The translations under genes and the position numbers were made by a program. This document shows, piece after piece, positions 5,808 to 58,669 of a stretch of 64,000 bases of DNA. This stretch comes from Candidatus Altimarinota bacterium. GTDB taxonomy: Bacteria; Patescibacteriota; Gracilibacteria; Absconditabacterales; Absconditicoccaceae. The notes below the pieces were generated by a model that saw nothing but the letters and a program-made list of their open reading frames with translations, was not told the origin of the DNA and did no database searches. The stretch spans positions 1 through 64,000 of the forward strand of contig JAIPIU010000007.1 in NCBI GenBank assembly GCA_021734475.1, read 5' to 3'. Position 1 is the stretch's first letter. Each line of letters starts with the position of its first letter.

Positions 5808-7724
5808 ATGAAAAAAGGAATACTATTCACGATAATATTTATAATAATAATGACAGGACTACTACAAGTATATAAAAATAGCAATATTATCTGAGATGAT
5901 ACAATCCAAACTATAAAAGAAAAAAAAGAAATATCATTAAACGAACGACTTTGATTATATAATTCATGAACTTTTTCTAATATTAAATTAATAAATGATT
6001 CAAAATTAGAATGATATAATTTTTTGTGAACATGAGAAGAAAAAACAATAATGGCTTTCAATAAAAGCTTAAAACAAGATCTTTTTGATTTATACCATTC
6101 TCAAAAGCCTATAAATACTTCATTAAATGATCTATGAATAAGCCTAACTTGAGCCACAAAGATAGAAGTAGAATTTACTGAAGCTTCAATATTCCAAAAA
6201 ATATTAGAACAAGTCTGACCATTAATCTTATTTATAATAATAATTTTCTTTTTTGCAAAGTTCGCATTACCAAAATGATGATGAATGCCATTTAATATGA
6301 AAATATGAAAACAAACCCAAAAAGAACAAAGTAAAACAAGATTTTCAGATGTAGCAGGAATGGAAGAAGTTAAAATGGAATTAAGCGAAATAGTTGATTA
6401 TTTAAAAAATCCTGAAAAATATCATAAAGTATGAGCAAGACATCCAAAATGAGTATTGTTATACGGACAACCATGATCTTGAAAAACATTATTAGCTAGA
6501 GCTGTAGCTTGAGAAGCATCTGTACCATTTTTTACAGCATCCTGATCAGAATTTATGGAAATGTTGGTTTGAATGTGAGCTGCAAGAGTTAGAGAACTAT
6601 TTTGAAAAGCAAAAGCAGCATGAAGAGCTATAGTATTTATAGATGAAATAGATGCTATATGAAAAAGAAGATGATCTTGATTTACATGATGACATCAAGA
6701 ACAAGAACAAACACTAAATCAGATACTAACTGAAATGGATTGATTTGATAATACTACAAAAGTTATAATAATAGCAGCAACAAATAGACCAGATACATTA
6801 GATCCTGCTTTATTAAGAGCTTGAAGGTTTGATAGAAAAGTAATGGTATCAGCTCCTACATATGAAGAAAGAATAGAAATATTTAATTATTATCTCAAAA
6901 AAAAGAAGATAACAAAGGAGGTTAAAATAGAATCTTTAGCAAAAAGAACTAGTGGTTTAGTATGAGCAGATATAGAAAACATAGCAAATGAAGCTTCTTT
7001 AAAAATAGCAAAAGAAAATAGAGAATATATAACAGTTAATGACTTTGAATATGCTTTGGAAAAAGTATTAATGTGACCAGAAAAAAGAGTTAAATCAATC
7101 AGAGAAGATGAAAAAAAGACGATAGCATATCACGAATTATGACATGCAATTACATCTCACATACTACCAAATGCTGATCCTGTAGAAAAAATATCTATAG
7201 TACGTAGATGACAAGCATTATGAGTTACATGGATATCTCCAAGTGAAGATAAATATCTCTATTCAAAATCAAAATTTATAGATGAAGTAACATCTCTATT
7301 GTGATGAAGAGCGGCTGAAGAGATATTCTTTTGAATAGAAAATATAACAACATGAGCTTCAAATGATTTTGAAAAAGCTACAACAATAATAAGAGATATG
7401 ATTACAAAATATTGAATGGACGAAGAATTATGACCAATTCTATATTCAGATCAAAACAAAGATGAATACAAATTATTCAAAAACTATAGCGAAAAAACAG
7501 CTGAGATTATAGATAAAAAAATAAAAGATTATTTATTCAAATGTTATGATAATTCAAAAAAAATAATAAAACAAAATAAAAAATTAATAGAAAAAATGTC
7601 TGAAGTGTTATTATGAAAGGAATATCTAACAAATGAAGAATTCAACCTTATGATGAATGATATTTCAACAGCAAAAGATCTAATGAAATGAATAGCTGAA
7701 GATAAAAAAAATTGAAAAAAATAA
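5808..7724 (+). CDS. ftsH: ATP-dependent membrane zinc metalloprotease FtsH
   Basis: FtsH (638 aa) unfolds and degrades membrane and short-lived cytosolic proteins. A first membrane segment lies at residues 4-20, an extracytoplasmic domain follows, and a second membrane segment ([18 protein letters not shown]) is near residues 148-165. The AAA+ domain has the P-loop GQPGSGKT at 219-226, [10 protein letters not shown] (Walker B) and the second region of homology ([20 protein letters not shown]). The zinc motif HELGH is at 442-446. Two of the three P-loop glycines are TGA. It heads a tightly spaced plus-strand run ending with dnaB. An A/T-rich gap with a pyrimidine-rich tract separates it from recG. 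Confidence 0.97.
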
Positions 7725-46303: not shown

Positions 46304-48061
46304 ATGAAAAAACTATTAGCTTCACTTATTTTATTATCAGCGATTTTCTTTGTATGAAATCATACTTTTGCCAAAGATTGCCTAGATCTCAGTTTTTCAG
46401 ATTGAGATATTTGTATTAGTATGGACAAAGACGATGATGAATATACATTAGACTATGAACTTGAAGATACAAATTGAGCGGTATCTTTGAAATGTGATAT
46501 TTTATTACCAGATAATACACTAAAAAATCTATGAGCATGTAATTGAGATTTTACTTATTCAAAGGAAAAAACCGAAAAAGTAAAATTATATGTAAGATTA
46601 AATAACGAATACAAAACTAAAGAAGCATATTATGATTTTGATGATTGAGAACGATGAAATTCAATATGATGATCTTCTTCTAATTGAGATTTAGATGAAT
46701 TTGATTTCTATTATATTGAAGATTCTTCTCCTGATAAAGACGAACGAATTACTGTTAGAATAAAAGCTTTAGATGACGATAATGACGTAATCTCTGATTA
46801 CGATGAACAAGTTACTCTTCATTTCCAAAGAGATTGAGATGATGCTGATGATTACGATCTTAAAATACAATCTGATGATTTTAATGAAGATGAAGACGAT
46901 CTTGATTCCAACGGTGAAATTGATGTTGATTTCGATAACGGTTATCTAGAATTTGAAGTTTGGTTCGAATATGAGGACGAATATACAATTACTGTTGAAG
47001 ATTGAAGTGTTGATGCAGATCAAGATTTCGATGTTTGAGATAATTGATCTTCTTCTAATTGAGATGTTGATAATTTCTATGTAACAACTAATGATTCTTC
47101 TCCTGAAACTGATGAACGAGTTGATCTTACTATCAAAGCTCGTGATGATTGAAATGATTTAGTTGATGACTATGATTGAACTGTTGTATTTGAAGTTTAT
47201 TATAGAACTTCTAGTTCTTCTTCTCGATACAAAACTACATCTTCTACTTATTTTGAAATAGATGATGATTATGAAGACGGTTATGAATTTGATTCTGATG
47301 ATGACTGATTAGTCACTCTTGATAATTTTATTGAATTCAAAAAAGATTATGATTTCAAAGTTCTTGTTGAAGATGAAGATGATGATGATATTTATGGTGA
47401 AAGAATATTTTATGTTGATGATAACTGATCTTCTTCTAATTGAGATTTAGATGAATTTGATTTCTATTATGTTGAAGATTCTTCTCCTGATAAAGACGAA
47501 CGAATTACTGTTAGAATAAAAGCTTTAGATGACGATAATGACGTAATCTCTGATTACGATGAACAAGTTACTCTTCATTTCCAAAGAGATTGAGATGACG
47601 CTGATGATTACGATCTTAAAATACAATCTGATGATTTTAATGAAGATGAAGACGATCTTGATTCCAACGGTGAAATTGATGTTGATTTCGATAACGGTTA
47701 TCTAGAATTTGAAGTTTGGTTCGAATATGAAGATGAATATACGATTACTGTTGAAGATTGAAGTGTTGATGCAGATCAAGATTTCGATGTTTGAGATAAT
47801 TGATCTTCTTCTAATTGATTTTCTTCAAGTGATATAGATAAAGTTGAATGAGTTTACAATGCTCGACCAGCATTAATAGATGATCTAGAAGATGATTATC
47901 CAGCATTAAAAACAAATAATACACGACAAAATATGTCAGATGATTTCTATGATGAAATGGAAAATATAATAAATTGAGATGATTCTATATACGACAATTA
48001 TGATGAATTTTATGACTGATTCTTAGATCGATATTCTTATACAATACAAGTTAGAGACTAA
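46304..48061 (+). CDS. Secreted very acidic repeat protein
   Basis: A signal peptide (MKKLLASLILLSAIFFVGNH, ending TFA) precedes 585 aa dominated by Asp, Glu, Ser and Gly. It has Ig-like beta units of about 100-130 residues separated by GSSSNG linkers. A 131-codon block (DEFDFYYIEDSSPDKDERIT to GSSSNG) occurs twice, encoded at 46670-47062 and 47426-47818 with only a few base changes. A related, diverged unit lies between them. Such acidity suggests calcium binding or a surface coat. The C-terminus has a helical segment (ALIDDLEDDYPALKTNN) and no membrane anchor. A terminator follows. Confidence 0.8.
46670..47062 (+). repeat. 393-bp direct repeat, copy 1
   Basis: This in-frame repeat inside the acidic protein gene matches 47426-47818 almost base for base, including TGA glycine positions. 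That indicates a recent duplication or ongoing homogenisation by recombination. Confidence 0.9.
47426..47818 (+). repeat. 393-bp direct repeat, copy 2
   Basis: The second copy lies 756 bases after the first. The differences seen include one Ile/Val change and a few silent third-position changes. Confidence 0.9.
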
Positions 48062-50014: not shown

Positions 50015-51079
50015 TTATGCAGCCATAGATCGATTATCAACATAGCTTTCATCTAAATTTTGAGCTATATCTAATCTAGCGTCCTTATTTTTGTAATAAT
50101 TATCTACAAACTCTTTGTGATCAAAGTGCCAATCTTCTGAAGAAATTGGATGAAAATTAAATATTTTTGCAATTTTCTTTAATCAAGACACTCATCATAT
50201 TTTTTTGCTATATCTAGAATTAGTAGATACGTCTATAGAATATCATAGGTTGTGTCAACTATAACCAGGATCTGCTGTGGGAGTTCAAGTTTTTTTATTT
50301 TTTTCTTTTAGATCTTCTTGATGTTCTATTGTTCTATAGCCACTTTCTATTAAAAACTTAGATCAAGTTTTATTATAAAATATCAAAGCAAGTCAAATTA
50401 AATCTGATGCTATTTTGGAATTTACATAAGGAGTTTTGCCTCTACATTCCAAAATAATCTTTCAATTTTTATCTTTTAATTTTTTTATTTTGGTTAGATT
50501 TCATTTTGTTTCAAGTTTATCCACTATATATTTACTATTTTCTCAAACATATTCCAAATCCTCTTTTTTGACTTCTCATCAAACTTTAAGATTTTTATAA
50601 GGAGTATAAATTGGCACAAATGGTACAATGGGAGTTTCTTTAGAATCAGTATTACTAGTCTCTGTAGAAGCATCATCTGTAGAAGTATCATCTATTGCTT
50701 CAGGATCTTCAACGCTAATATCAGGATTTAATATTTTTTCTTTTAATTGATTTAATGCATCTTTGGTATTAGCACTATCAAGTTCTTTTTTAGCTTCTTG
50801 AAAATACTTACTAGTTTCCGGATCTAATCAATCCAACAATTTATTTATAAAATTTCAACTAAAATTATCTGATATTTTATCTAATAATCACTCAGATACT
50901 AAATAATCTTTGATCATATCTCAATCCCCTATTATAAAATTAGACAAAGAAGATCATTTTTTTTCTTTTATTTTTTCTATATATAGATCAGCTACTTCAT
51001 TCTTTAGATCAATAATTTCATCATCAACAGATCAAATAGGATTTTTAAGTATATCTAGATTCTCAAATATTTCTGCCAT
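50015..51079 (-). CDS. VanY-type D,D-carboxypeptidase (M15) with long N-terminal region
   Basis: The C-terminal half of this 354-aa protein is an M15B zinc peptidase: FLIESGYRTIEHQEDL, TPTADPGYSGHNLGYSIDVS (SxHxxGxAxD zinc motif) and SEDWHFDH (E-x-WH motif). These enzymes trim the terminal D-alanine of peptidoglycan stem peptides. Residues 1-170 are helical and Asp/Thr/Ser-rich in the linker (DDTSTDDASTETSNTDSKET). No signal peptide is visible. It starts 16 bases after the 1459-aa gene, so it is the last gene of the giant-protein operon. With no signal peptide, export may depend on the operon or a non-classical route. Confidence 0.88.
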
Positions 51080-51095
51080 TTTTTAATTTTAAAGA

Positions 51096-54000
51096 TTAAA
51101 ATGAATTAATATATTTTATAAATTTTCATTTATTTGACTCAATAAGTAAGCTAGGAAAGTACTTTTCTATGGTTTTTGGTTTTAAAATATCAGTATCATT
51201 TATATATGAATCATCAACATAAAGTTTACCACTCAGATCTCAAAAATCAAATTTACCTGATGAATCAGGATGTTTCTTTAAATAATGTCACTTTATTCGA
51301 TTTATAAGATTACTCATATAACAAAACTCTCTAAGATTAGTAAAAGAATAATTTATACCAACTATTTTATACAGTTTTTTCTCTACGTCTATTTTTACTT
51401 CACAAACAGATCATCGACTTTCAACCGATCAAATAATATTTTTTTCAGAAGACTTTTTTTCATTCAAATTAAATTTTATTTTTCATCTTCAATATCATCG
51501 ATCAACATTATTCATAGTTTTAATTATATTATCCATAGTTTTATCAATATTTGCATATATTTCATTTTCCGAATTAGAAACATTTCTTATAGTTTGAGGA
51601 TTTTCTTTTACTTTTGTTCAATCAATTGAAAGTAAAGTATCATCTACATCAATATACAAATTACTATTCCCTAAATTTATATCTATTCTAGCTTTTAAAT
51701 AATCATCATTTCAATCATAATTCTGTTTTATTTTAGCAGTATTTTCATTATTTCAATTAGTTTTCAAAACTTCTGATTCAAATACAGACAACATAACTTG
51801 ATTTAACATTCGCTCTCATTTCTTTTTTTCTATAAGGTTTTCTGATAAAAGCAACTGTTCAACTGTTTTATCTTCTCATTGATATTTATTTTTTATATAT
51901 TTTAATATATTCGTCTTTTCATCTTCTTCCAAATCTAAATGATCAAAGTTAACTTTTCAACTTTTATCAATCTTATATTTTTCTTTATTTATCCATGCCC
52001 AAGCTTGAGACATACGATTGAAATTTCATAAATTATTATTTATAGAAAATTGTGATATTGTTGCCAACATTCACATATAAGTTCAATTAAAGTAATTATA
52101 GTAAGATTTCCATTGTTCTTTTAATTTAAAACTAGCACTATCTACATCAAGATATTTCAAAGATTCAACAAAATTATTTCGTTCATAAACTTTATTTGAC
52201 ATCTCTCTTTCTATTTCTACTGGAATATTTAATTCATCTTCATGTCATCAAAACAATCCATCTTGCTTACGAGATTCTATATTTCTAATATTATTAAGTC
52301 TATCTTTTTCAATATTAACCATTTCTATAACTTTTAGTTCTTCTACACTAAGATTATCTCTAAGTGGATTTATAGATTCATATTTTATATTATTTCAAGT
52401 TTGATCAAAATTTAAAATTTCGCTAATATAGTTTTCTGAGCTAATAGCAATTATTTGATTATTTTCATATTTAAATAAAAATTTTTCAACATCTCAAATT
52501 TTTGCTCTTTTGGCCGCTATTACCAAATTATATGGAATTTCAACGTATCAAGTTTGATTTTTTCATTCATATATCAATTCTCCATTATTATTTACACTAG
52601 CGTCTTCTCATAAAGAACTAGATTGTTTTTTAATAAAATCAACAATTTGATTCTCAACCTTTTTCTTTTCTTGAGGAGATTTAGCATCTATTTCTTCTTT
52701 TATTATTTCTTTTATTTTTGATCTAAATTCATTTACAGCTTCTCTATCAGCAACATCTACTGCTGAATCCAGCATCAAAACATCATCAAATTTGTCATAA
52801 ACCTGATCTGCTGTTAAATTTTTATTATCTATATCATCCAAGTTCCATTTTCTATCAATAGTAGAAAACCGATTAGCAACTGCATTTAGAATAATTCAAC
52901 CCATAACAAAACTAATTGGACTACTATTGTACCATCTATCTCAACCAAAAGTATTTTCATCATTATTTATTTTTCGTTTATTATCGTAGTATATTCATTT
53001 AGTATCATCACTAGATTCAGTATAAAAACTCATAAGTTCAAACATATCATTATTTCAATCATATCAATGAAATTCTCTAGCCATCCTATATATTATATTT
53101 TGACCAGTAGACTGTGATGTTTGAAAATTTGTATTTAATCTAGATTCTAATCAGTTTCTACTTGAAAAGTAATTTATAGCATTATCTTGATTAAAATTCG
53201 AAGAAACATCTATCTGTTTTATATCAATCAATATTCTTTCCAAATAGCTATTATCATAAGATGTATAATCTATAGTAACGTTCTTCTTATGTTCTATAGT
53301 CAATCAAAGGTTTTTATAATGATAATATTTTTTAATAAATTCTTTATTTTTCTTAATAGCGGTTAATTCAGTTTCGGTATATACAGATTCATTGAATATT
53401 TCAAATCTATTTATTCCAGTACATAAATATTCAAATCTATTTATATCAGTTTTATAAATATTCTCAAACAAAGAATATTGTTTTGGATAACTATTTTTTA
53501 AGTCTTCTCAAAGTTTATTTTTATATTCTTCTATAGATCATGTAAATCATTTTATACATTCATTTTCGGGATTTTTTATTTCTGAATAAACATCAGATTC
53601 TCATAATATCTTTTCTATATAAGATATACCTGAACTTTTTTTTATATTTTCCATAAATTCAAGATATTTTTTGTTATCTATATCCTTTTTGATAAACTTG
53701 TTTACATATATCATCCTATCATTTATTATATTTTCCATAGTACTCCATTCATTATCTCGTTTATCTTTATCTTCTTTTGATAATTTTTTATAAAAATCTT
53801 CTCTAATTAATCCTGAATAATACCAATTACTAATAATAGAAAAACTATATTTACTAGATAATAAATTTTTTGAATATTTATCTATTTCTTCTTGAAATAT
53901 CAAAGCTTCCCAAGCATCTTTAAATGTATTTATTCATTTTTTATTCAATGCTTTATCTGTAAGATTTGGATTAGCATCAATATCTTGTTCTTTTGCACAC

Positions 54001-55475
54001 TGTAAAATAGCTTGTTTAATATCAGTTCTATCTTGTTTTATATAGTCCTCTCTATTTTGAGTATAAAATTCCAATTTATTATAATAAAGCTGATTGACCA
54101 TTTCTTGTACAGTAAAAATTAGAACTCATACCGCCAAACCTATCACCAATCAAATTGCATTTCAAACACCAGGAACAACAGATCAAGCTGCTGCTCATAT
54201 ATAAGATGCACTTAAAATAATTCAAAGTTCTAAGACAATGGAAGCTGCACCCATAGCTAATTCAAAATAAGCTTTATCTTTTTTTACAGAAGCTCTAGCT
54301 TCATTAACTTTTGCAATAAATTCAGCTTCACTCATAGATTCTCTTCGCATCCAGACATCAAAACCAAAAAATGCTAAATCCAACGCTCCAAAACAAGATA
54401 ATCATTTCAAAAAAGGAGACATTTTTTTACCATATCTCAAAACTTTTGAAAAAGCTTTAATATTTCAGACATCATCCATATCAGTCAAAATAGCTATTAC
54501 TCTTTTATCTATATTTTCTATACCATTATCAGATAGAATTCAGACTATTTTATCAACTGATTTTTCTTTTGCTATTAGCTGAAAAACATCTTCATTTAAT
54601 TCTGCTAATTTAGCCGCTGTTTTAGCATCCAAAGAATTTAAAACATTGTAAGGAATATCTTTTCATAACTTACCTCGAGAATCCCAAGCACTAATAAATT
54701 CTTCATCTCACAATCATGCAGAAATTTCAGCAAATTTTTTAGATGACTTATCAAGATTATTTCTTGCTGCTCTAGAAATTTTTGGATTCACTTTTTCTTT
54801 ATCAAAACGACTTACAGTTTTTTCCATTTGTTTTTTTATACTTTCTATCTCTTGTTTTGCTGATTTTGTAGTTAGCTCAAAATCTAATTCTTTTTGAAGT
54901 TTCATACTATTATATTTATTTACAGATCATTCCATAGCTTTCCAAGCAGTAGCTCAAGTCACACCAGTAATTACTCAGCTTTCTAGTGAATTATTATTAA
55001 CATCAGTATCTTTATTTTCATCTAATTCTGTAGAATTCTCATCAGTATCTTTATTTTCAGAAGACTCATCATTTCATCAATCATCAGATGTTCAATTAGA
55101 TTCTTGATTATCATTTTGATTTTCATCTCAATCGGTTTCTTGATTATCTCAAGGAACAACTTCATCTTTAAGTTTATTTAAACTTTCAGCAGTTTTGGAT
55201 CTAATAATAATAGATTGTTTTTCTTTCAAAAAATCAAAAATAGTATTTGCCATACTTGGCGTAACTATACCAAGAACATTTCTCCATCGTCCCAAATCAT
55301 CCAAATCTTTCAAAGTCTTTCATTCCAAATCAATATTAGATGTCATTATTTTCTTCAATTTATCTTCTATAGGCAAAATTGTCAAAGATTTTAACCATCC
55401 AAGTTCTTTTTTAAATTCTTGGATGTAACTTTGAGCAAGTTCTAATTTTACACTTTCAATATTTTTATCCACCAT
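51096..55475 (-). CDS. Giant unknown protein (1459 aa) with glycine-zipper membrane hairpin
   Basis: One uninterrupted recoded frame. Residues 1-110 are helical. A Asp/Glu/Asn/Ser-rich linker covers about 112-170 (ETDGDENQNDNQESNGTSDD). Helical and coiled-coil sequence follows. Two adjacent hydrophobic segments at about 415-462 contain small-residue runs (ASYIGAAAGSVVPGVGNAIG, LVIGLAVGVLIF) like glycine zippers of pore-forming or phage-tail-type proteins. The remaining 1000 residues are charged and soluble with no motif I know, ending in a beta-like region (NLYIDVDDTLLSIDGTK). There is no signal peptide. It begins 2 bases after the stop of the 1063-aa gene, indicating translational coupling, and is followed by vanY. 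Confidence 0.85.
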
Positions 55476-55477
55476 AT

Positions 55478-58400
55478 TTATGTAATTTTAGTAAATACCT
55501 TAAACATATTTTTTAATAATAATGCTATATCATCAGAATTACTTATCAATTTTTTTCAAGCAGTATCAATTTTACTAACAATCTTATTTATATCGTCCAA
55601 TTTAACATATTTCAAAAAGTTTTGATCTTGAGATGCTATTCTTAAAGAATATTTTAGTTCATCAAAATTTCATTCACTCATAGCTTTTTTTATCAAATCT
55701 GATCAAGGAACATTTACTTCTAGCATCCTATGTAATTTAGCCATAGATGACATATCAAATCAATTATCACTAAATCTTATAAGTGCTCTATATTCTATAT
55801 CAGAAAAAGTATTTGCTCTAAGTTTCATATTTTCCAAACTTTTTATAGAATCTTCATAATAAGCTTTTATATGTCTACTATAATTAGGTGATCATGGTTT
55901 TATCTTATCCAACTCTTTTTTCATTATATTCAATTCCAAGTCAACTCTACGTCCAATATCTTTGATTTTGACATCATCAATCACATCAATTTTGGGTTTA
56001 TTTATTACTTTTCTAATATTTTCTATTTCTATATTTATTTCAGCAGCACTTGATAATTTTCAGATTTTTTTAGATAATTTTTTAGCAAGTTTAGGTAACT
56101 CTTTTTCTGGAACATCATCAAGATTTATTTGATCTATATTTTTAATTAATTTTTCTAAATCAGTTTTTGAAAACATTTTAGTATTTGTAACTAAATCAAA
56201 TAATTTAGATTGTTTATTAGTCAAAGAAGCTATTTTAGATTCATATAATTTAGCAAGTCTCAAAGATTCATCGAAATTATTTAATACCAATCAATTAAAG
56301 CTTCTATTATCAAAATATTTAGCTAATAATTTCCAATCATCATCAATCATTGTTTTATCTGAAAAAGCTTTCTTTAAAAGTTTTCATTTTTTCCAACCAA
56401 CATCTTTAGTAAATAATCCATCTTTACTATTAAATCGTCTATCTTTTATTTTTTGAGTTGTTCTAATCTGACTTCAGTCAACAATTTCTTGAGCTTTTTT
56501 AAGCGATATTTTTCATTTCCCTAATTCATCCACAAGCTTCTGAGGTCCATCAGCTTCACCAAAAAACATTCTTCTAAGTGATCATGATGGTCAACGATAT
56601 TTTCATCATATCTTTCTAGCAGTTCATAAAGAGGCTTGATAAACCTTTCCAGGAACAGTTACTGGTGATAATAAAGTATACTTCAACATAGTTCACGGAT
56701 ATTTTTTGAATGCTATAACTAAACCTGTAATTACAGCAATAGGAGCAACTCAAGTCAATAACCATCATAATCCAGAAAATATTTCTCATTTAAACAATTT
56801 CCCAAATCATTTTCACATATTTTTGAACATATCTTCAAACAACTTAGTGAATCTAATAATTACACTTCCATCATCCGATTTTACCATTTCATATATATTT
56901 ACTCATATTTCCAATTCTTTTTTTAGAGCAAAATAATTATTCATAAATTGTTTCAAAGATGTTACATCAGCAGCAGTCATTTCTCAACTAGCTATTTTTT
57001 GTTTTAATCCGGGAATATTTTCTCTAATTACTTTCAATAATGGTAATATAGTCGAGTTCTTTAAGAGCTCCTCTTTATTAGCATTTTCTGTATTAAATAA
57101 TCTTTTATACATATCAAACATTCTATCTTCTGCTACAATTTCCAAATCTTTTATATCATCCACTATTTTATCACAAGATTTAGAGAGTTGCTTCTCGTTT
57201 TCTGTTTCCAAAGATCCGTCTCATATATCATCTTCACATCTTTTAATTATATCATCTCAATCACTTCAATCTAATATATAATCTCTCTTATCATCACATT
57301 CTTGAACTATCTCAGTAGTATCTTCATTCATTTCTCAAGACATAATATTATATTTATCCAAAATTGAATAAGCATTTATAATCTTTCATTCTCTAAAAGA
57401 TTTGTAATCCAAATCGTCTTTTATGTTTCTTTCAAATCGTTCATCATCATCCAATGCTTCTTGATGATCTTCAAAATCTCATTTATCTGTTTCAAATTTT
57501 TTCTTAGCAATGGCATTTATAAGTTCTCATTCCTTAGTTTTCAAAAATACAGTAACTCTCATTTGTTGTCTAAAAAAAGCTTTTAATTCAGATATACGAG
57601 CTTGAGGATCTGAATCAATCCAAGCTGAAAATTTCTCCTCTAAATTATTTCAAACACCAAAAGTAGTCCAAGAAGGCAATATTTCTAGAAATGATTTTAA
57701 AGCTCATCAAACTTTACTTCTAAGTCGACTCAAAACTTTTGTTTTTATTTCTTGTGTATTTTTTTGATACAAATCTACTTCTATTCACCATTCCGAGAGA
57801 ATACTATCTACATCGCTAAAACTATTATCCATACAGAATGGAACCAATCATTTCAAAGATTTTCATCATAACTCTTGAGAAATAGAGTCCATATCAGAAT
57901 CATCTTCCCATCAATTTTCTATTTCTTTTGCAAATATATTATTATAGAGTCAGTCTACATTATCTCCAAATTTTTCATATTTTTCTGCTTCTTCAGGATT
58001 ATTTTCAACAAATTCTTCATAAGATCCTATTTTATCTTGATTTTCATCATGATTATCTGTTCAACTCTCTTTTCAAAATTTATTCATTAACCATTTAATA
58101 CCAAAAAAAGCTCCCAATCATATTCACGTCCATTTTAAAAACTTACCAAATCAACTTTTCCAAAACCCTTTCTTCTCTTTTTTATCTCAATCATCCCCTT
58201 CTTTTTCTTCTTTATTTTTTTTTCTTCTTCTAAAAAGAGCTATTATTCATACTACAGCCAATCAAATTCCAGCAGTTTTCCAAGGATTTTCTTTTACTCG
58301 TTCAATAGTTTTTCATCATTTCTCTTTAACCTTCTCCCAAAAAGTATTACTTTGAGGTTGAATTTCTTTCAATTGTTTTTCGTATATATCAAGTTCTTTT

Positions 58401-58669
58401 CTAATTTCATTAGTTACAGTAATATCTTGCTCCAAATCAGCAAGCTCTCTAGTTTGTTTTATAAGTTCCTGTGTCTCTTCTTTTTTCTTTTTGATTTCCA
58501 ATTTTTTCTCCTCTATTTCTTTATTTTTACGATCAAATTCAGCTTGTTCAAGATTAGCCTTATTTTTATTTAAATCTACAATTTCTTGATTTAAATCATC
58601 GACAGATTTCTTGATTTCATCAAGATTTCATTTTATTTGTTGAATTTTTTCAACACTAGTTTCTACCAT
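55478..58669 (-). CDS. Giant unknown protein (1063 aa) with coiled coil and DUF883-like membrane segment
   Basis: This is the first gene of the operon. Residues 1-112 form a strong heptad coiled coil (EIKKSVDDLNQEIVDLNKNK). TIERVKENPWKTAGIGLAVV with GIIALFRRRKK then recalls the ElaB/YqjD/DUF883 membrane anchor (ENPW then a glycine-rich helix and RRR). A second amphipathic or membrane stretch (FLKWTGIGLGAFFGIKWLM) follows at about 172-190. A third hydrophobic region lies near 640 (GLGWLLTGVAPIAVITGLVI). The rest is charged helical sequence with no known catalytic motif. No signal peptide. The product may be an inner-membrane structural part of a large envelope machine. Homologues were not recognised. 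Confidence 0.85.

Follow-up and report, generated by a model that had tools for sequence, protein, structure and literature searches.

Two giant proteins followed by an exchangeable peptidoglycan enzyme in a code-25 family of Patescibacteria

Introduction

How predatory and epibiotic Patescibacteria cross the wall of another cell is an open question, and the giant proteins of these bacteria are mostly unexplained. The stretch of DNA analysed here (64,000 nucleotides of contig JAIPIU010000007.1, from a Candidatus Altimarinota bacterium, member of a group of very small bacteria that probably depend on hosts; the window in what follows) bears on this question through a locus in which the genes of two giant proteins, A and B, are followed by that of a VanY-type peptidase, C. 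A first-pass annotation of the window had suggested that the three genes could encode a machine for attachment, injection or wall penetration. Comparison with related genomes (cited by G numbers, and their loci by L numbers) shows that an enzyme recurs after the giants, but that VanY is not constant: the fold found there varies among M15, M23, NlpC/P60 and YkuD.

Results

The three genes and their genetic code

The genome of the window (1.17 Mb in 8 contigs) reads TGA as glycine, that is, it uses genetic code 25. Under this table the three genes lie on the minus strand, gene A at 58669-55478 (1063 aa, 50 in-frame TGA codons), gene B at 55475-51096 (1459 aa, 57 in-frame TGA) and gene C at 51079-50015 (354 aa, 19 in-frame TGA), the last one coding for a VanY-type (M15) peptidase with an additional N-terminal domain. 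The gaps are 2 bases between A and B and 16 bases between B and C, all on one strand, which reproduces exactly the layout of the first-pass annotation. The standard code (table 11) can be ruled out, the region giving only small open reading frame fragments, and the three genes exist solely under table 25. Moreover, the frames of A and B are not due to chance because numerous genomes of the family encode homologues across the read-through TGA codons, at E values down to ~1e-60 for A and ~1e-107 for B.

A recurrent slot with a variable enzyme

A same-strand gene within ~50 bases after the giants is found in 20 genomes (a short extra gene intervenes in G001), and in 16 of these 20 it codes for a recognisable peptidoglycan enzyme, with one tally giving 14 by Pfam and 2 by homology and motifs. 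The slot holds a VanY/M15 peptidase in G000, G002, G032 and G035, an M23 peptidase in G001, G059, G063 and G064, an NlpC/P60 enzyme in G015, G016 (two), G020, G022, G024, G027 and G060, and a YkuD_2 L,D-transpeptidase in G031, the classes of G002, G024 and G064 being assigned by homology and motifs to scanned relatives and not by a Pfam scan of their own. Also, G032 carries a second slot gene, of the M23 type. The catalytic motifs searched for are present in the slot enzymes, except for the histidine pattern, which was not found in the NlpC protein of G022. The slot gene has no Pfam match in G018, G008 and G069 and is cut by the contig end in G062. For two slot families (G018/G009 and G022/G008/G069), Pfam matches do not fully explain the C-terminal parts, and conserved cysteine and histidine residues suggest that these would be cysteine peptidases. 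The order of giants and then a peptidoglycan enzyme, whose lack in relatives would have counted against the first proposal, recurs in ~16-20 genomes of the family, but VanY is not the constant third gene.

An N-terminal domain shared by B giants and slot enzymes

Most C enzymes have in common with the B giants a domain of ~120 residues (N-domain). Its profile was seeded on the N-terminal parts of six C proteins and iterated; the N-termini of B giants were matched in the first round at an E value of 4e-11, and that of the window B in the next one at 3e-19. The final round comprises 31 proteins, of which 12 are B giants and 19 are C proteins, with the match at or near the N-terminus, and none among the other ~840 predicted proteins of the loci. 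With solid scores, the N-domain is present in 22 of the 49 family genomes, only marginal short hits appear outside the family in the 353 genomes of the class, and no Pfam domain covers it. The profile search did not detect it in the slot enzymes of G035, G031, G022 and a few others.

The link between domain and enzyme is shown most strongly by proteins that were not built into the search, namely N-domain enzymes encoded away from the giants. These are a YkuD_2 protein in G005, an NlpC/P60 protein in G025, both an NlpC/P60 and a YkuD_2 protein in G033, and an M15_4 protein in G067. In these four genomes, the giants have no adjacent enzyme.

Exchange of the catalytic domain

The N-domain stays alike while the catalytic domain behind it is exchanged with its active site intact. 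For example, the N-domains of an M23 and an NlpC enzyme are 65% identical over 122 residues, four more pairs reach 60-63%, and within the genus of the window those of M23 and VanY enzymes are 51-54% identical. On a tree of SufS, a single gene and thus only a rough stand-in for the species tree, the enzyme class needs at least 9 changes over 16 tips. Well-supported sister pairs that differ in enzyme class are G000/G001, G035/G027 and G060/G063. Among these genomes, G001 belongs to the genus of the window and matches contig DJVF01000010.1 (Patescibacteria group bacterium UBA6263).

The VanY enzyme of the window and its two ends

The VanY domain of C (PF02557) scores 32.5 bits against a Pfam cut-off of 25, and it also matches phage endolysin profiles; in a single-sequence comparison with solved structures, VanY was matched weakly. 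The catalytic domain (50120..50404, minus strand) carries SGHNLGYSID at residues 274-283 and EDWH at residues 315-318, so that the zinc-site motifs SxHxxGxAxD and ExWH are intact, with serine in place of alanine at one variable position (SxHxxGxSxD). With the VanY/M15 D-Ala-D-Ala carboxypeptidases, C has in common a catalytic domain with intact motifs; it differs from them by the N-domain, by the lack of an export signal and by scores far below the NCBIfam VanY models (27.5 bits against a curated cut-off of 425 for the resistance models). On present sequence evidence, C is not a vancomycin-resistance gene.

The N-domain of C (residues 16-121; 50717..51034, minus strand) is predicted to be all-helical. 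An AlphaFold2 model of this domain alone, based on a shallow alignment of 3 sequences, has a pLDDT of 71.8 and a pTM of 0.62, and fold searches with the predicted domain gave no match (best E value ~4). The whole of C, predicted from a likewise shallow alignment of three sequences, is a poor model (pLDDT 42.5).

At the other end, C terminates in -M-A-A (50018..50026, minus strand). A C-terminal alanine is found in 14 of the 18 complete C proteins with N-domain and in 24 of 586 background proteins (4%), a difference with a Fisher p value of 3e-15 that is overstated, as related proteins are not independent. The feature spans C proteins of different catalytic folds. In the transfer-messenger RNA (tmRNA) of this genome (L097:1501-1962, a locus that ARAGORN did not call), the tag read in frame from the resume codon on the Rfam alignment is AKTLNRAFALVPSYSVA, ending in YSVA. 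This likeness may point to turnover or to a C-terminal recognition signal. A ClpXP degron is a weakened interpretation, since ClpX was not found in the near-complete genome of the window, which does encode FtsH (5808-7724 of the window).

As a separate observation, two proteins encoded near A/B-like genes end in -MAA (L177:11611-12531) and -IAA (L179:13631-14446). Inspection by eye shows no enzyme domain in either, and Pfam gives no match for the first; it is possible that they are non-enzymatic cargo.

Architecture of the giants

Protein A begins with a charged, coiled-coil-like region (approximately residues 1-105, minus strand), followed by two weak hydrophobic segments within residues ~123-200 and a clear, stronger one at ~629-655. 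The segment at residues 123-150 (58220..58303, minus strand) resembles DUF883_C (PF19029, E value 8.2e-5) at 22.6 bits, below the Pfam gathering cut-off of 27. The DUF883-like anchor named in the first-pass annotation (A residues 123-144) corresponds to this sub-threshold hit.

Protein B is composed of the N-domain (residues 2-126; 55098..55472, minus strand; E values of 3e-19 to 4e-34 with the C-seeded, iterated profiles), an acidic linker, a helical region, a hydrophobic hairpin and a long C-terminal region. The hairpin, glycine-rich and located by hydropathy at residues 402-461 (54093..54272, minus strand), is real: in 10 of 12 B homologues no other segment is more hydrophobic, and its position is the same in most of them. 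The most widely conserved core lies at residues 789-832 (52980..53111, minus strand) and has the pattern QNxxYRxAxExxGYxGxND...GIYY; it is matched by profile in other families of the class. A C-terminal domain occupies residues ~1290-1457 (51105..51608, minus strand; profile positions ~1210-1370). Single or multiple copies of this domain are also present in further large proteins from the family (L180:8615-12304 and L179:7939-9684), the first of which, of 1229 aa, apparently has three copies, judged by eye.

For A and B, nothing above cut-off was obtained in Pfam, PHROG, NCBIfam or PADLOC, and profile searches of solved structures turned up nothing convincingly related to the giants or to the N-domain. 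By these searches, the two giants belong to no described family, and housekeeping homologues, which had been named as a finding that would refute the initial proposal, are absent from the profile and structure-database results. An anti-phage defence system is likewise rejected on the PADLOC result. Neither A, B nor C has a signal peptide or a hydrophobic N-terminus according to hydropathy, as first noted. As an internal control, a second VanY protein encoded in this genome (L096:9668-10432) does have an N-terminal hydrophobic segment of the signal-peptide type.

Distribution of the cassette and age of its parts

Homologues of A are present in 14 of 59 relatives, all from the same family, and a profile built from nine B proteins gives some match in 31 family genomes, ~20 of them strong. 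In most B-bearing genomes A directly precedes B, and in G008, G069 and G067 both are carried on one protein. The chromosomal site is often shared, with SufS before the cassette and MiaA or LexA/RecA on its other side. The cassette is missing from many near-complete genomes of the family, which implies that wall growth in general does not require it.

Short A-like proteins occur as well. Three of them (463-518 aa) follow SufS in G005 (L065:7549-12896), in whose genus the N-terminal module of A is duplicated, and similar single ones are encoded in G067, G070 and G071.

Beyond the family, proteins of 1.0-2.2 thousand residues from other families of the class, which use the standard code, carry the B core (hhalign probability 97.6%, E value 3e-12). 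Near the N-terminus of these fused, class-wide giants, the membrane region of A is matched weakly (hhalign probability 23%, E value 9e-4). In G106 the matches to A and B fall on separate neighbouring genes, of 904 and 1007 aa. No N-domain enzyme adjoins the class-wide giants examined, so the slot appears to have been added in the recoded family to giants that probably predate it. At L161, L164 and L167, giants of this standard-code kind are near a ValRS-like gene, with a secreted-looking M23 protein ~3 kb away (identified by Pfam in L167 and by similarity in L161 and L164).

Discussion

A candidate wall-breaching cassette

The recurrent slot, the shared N-domain and the exchanged catalytic domains are consistent with A, B and C being one polymorphic cell-wall-breaching cassette, with C as its enzyme cargo, probably for the wall of a host; we regard this interpretation as about evenly balanced between right and wrong. 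The N-domain enzymes encoded away from the giants, the terminal alanine of C proteins and the patchy distribution of the cassette count on the same side. In this case, C would be made in the cytoplasm, and its N-domain would act as a docking or export address joining it to a membrane assembly of A and B, B being the resident membrane bearer of the same domain and A its partner. A flexible acidic linker would follow the N-domain and lead to the catalytic end exchanged in evolution. The giants, both with membrane segments, would be anchored in the envelope or cross it where the cells touch, and C would leave the cell, or enter its neighbour, by way of A and B or together with them. There, the enzyme would open the host wall, its exchange reflecting the differing walls of the hosts. 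That sister species differ in enzyme chemistry does not sit easily with the care of one's own wall and fits species-specific targets, that is, hosts. Of the machine first proposed, the wall-penetrating role is better supported by swapped enzymes on a shared N-domain than by the gene layout alone, whereas attachment, injection and host targeting are still conjectural.

The lifestyle of known code-25 relatives is compatible with such a role, since they kill or parasitise other bacteria (PMC8080830, PMC13059738). Vampirococcus lugosii (PMC8080830) and Strigamonas methylophilicida (PMC13059738), which are predatory or epibiotic, share with the genomes studied here the code and very large membrane proteins, which in these two organisms are giant surface proteins. 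For Vampirococcus, peptidoglycan hydrolases have also been proposed to degrade the host wall; these are predicted to be secreted (PMC8080830), whereas C has no signal peptide. As far as the available text of the two reports goes, neither connects giants with hydrolases or mentions a shared domain or swapping. Also, searches of an open-access library returned no report of the cassette, which does not prove that there is none.

There is a real chance that the carrier of the enzymes may be a new kind of machine. In its most specific form, this would be a new delivery machine of code-25 Patescibacteria, with A and B spanning the envelope and unlike known secretion systems, the N-domain as export or docking signal, and exchangeable wall enzymes as cargo against the host, a tentative idea with the balance leaning against it.

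Several points weigh against a host-directed cassette. The export of C is a step that we infer, and in profile searches neither giant matched a component of a known secretion system. A sub-threshold match to a VirB4-like ATPase on another contig of this genome makes another secretion route possible. Unlike effectors of the type VI secretion system (T6SS), C has no immunity gene beside it in the cassettes examined. Finally, at the loci examined, no N-domain enzyme is found beside the giants of other families, which may mean that the giants also work independently of it.

Alternative roles

Remodelling of the own envelope, in which the cassette would open or reshape the cell's own wall to seat a large envelope structure such as a pilus or secretion channel, is unlikely but a serious contender. 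Peptidoglycan enzymes commonly help channel assembly, and VirB1-type enzymes of type IV secretion are known, Patescibacteria included (PMC12102498). The cassette resembles them, as both are cases within one phylum of wall enzymes with varied domains tied to a membrane machine, and both the VirB4-like ATPase of this genome and the class-wide occurrence of the giants agree with this role. However, no VirB4 or VirB6 is seen in the cassette neighbourhoods examined, and A and B are not VirB6-like by the profiles run. Moreover, the own wall should not need at least four unrelated enzyme chemistries in sister species, nor does this role account for the many near-complete relatives lacking the cassette, and the other VanY of the genome has an export-type N-terminal segment that C does not have.

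The closest analogue of the cassette, from published descriptions, is the WHIX class of T6SS effectors, which was found by similar N-termini with different C-termini and combines a constant domain with enzymes that can be exchanged and that mostly target peptidoglycan, among them M23, NlpC/P60 and M15 (PMC12135965). The cassette is alike in its constant N-domain with exchangeable M15, M23, NlpC/P60 and YkuD enzymes. It differs in that its N-domain has ~120 residues and is all-helical by prediction, the likeness coming from descriptions and not from a direct comparison with WHIX, and in that the partners of C are not adjacent immunity genes but two giants, one of them sharing the N-domain. Having no adjacent immunity gene, it is not filed as a WHIX or T6SS member. 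An exchangeable enzyme joined to an unchanging N-terminus is nonetheless the hallmark of polymorphic effectors (PMC12135965), and Tlde1, a T6SS effector, is a precedent for the L,D-transpeptidase fold in an antibacterial role (PMC9638812). This would make the C proteins weapons against rivals and not tools against hosts, which is improbable given that no immunity gene lies beside C in the cassettes examined; the downstream neighbour is often MiaA or LexA on the opposite strand.

A domesticated phage ejection or lysis module would have the same general make-up, giant helical membrane proteins with a muralytic enzyme as in phage ejection proteins, and the VanY domain of C matches phage endolysin profiles. 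This is very unlikely, as 50,697 phage records contain no match for A, B or the N-domain, IMG/VR has none for B, no PHROG matches A or B, and the chromosomal site is often the same. Phage origin is thus disfavoured, and for B, the only one of the three proteins searched there, no plasmid match supports a plasmid origin.

A meeting of B and C through their N-domains inside the cytoplasm, with the enzymes stored or used in wall recycling, would agree with the lack of signal peptides and, with FtsH present, with turnover by way of the tag-like terminal alanine, but it is the least probable role, as peptidoglycan lies outside, recycling poorly explains unrelated chemistries, and the ClpXP version fails.

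The comparison provides a defined gene set and a marker N-domain that retrieves the relevant wall enzymes from genomes of the family. It also offers a testable rule, by which the class of enzyme in a cassette should vary with the host. Moreover, if the N-domain is an export signal, it would define a new polymorphic effector platform.

Genes around the cassette

Upstream of gene A, at 127 bases, lies a gene for a SufS-like aminotransferase of class V, and downstream of C, only 4 bases away, a convergent gene has the sequence features of MiaA. Further along, 46304-48061 codes for a secreted-looking protein of 585 aa with long, near-identical internal repeats and no Pfam match; relatives carry related proteins at the same site.
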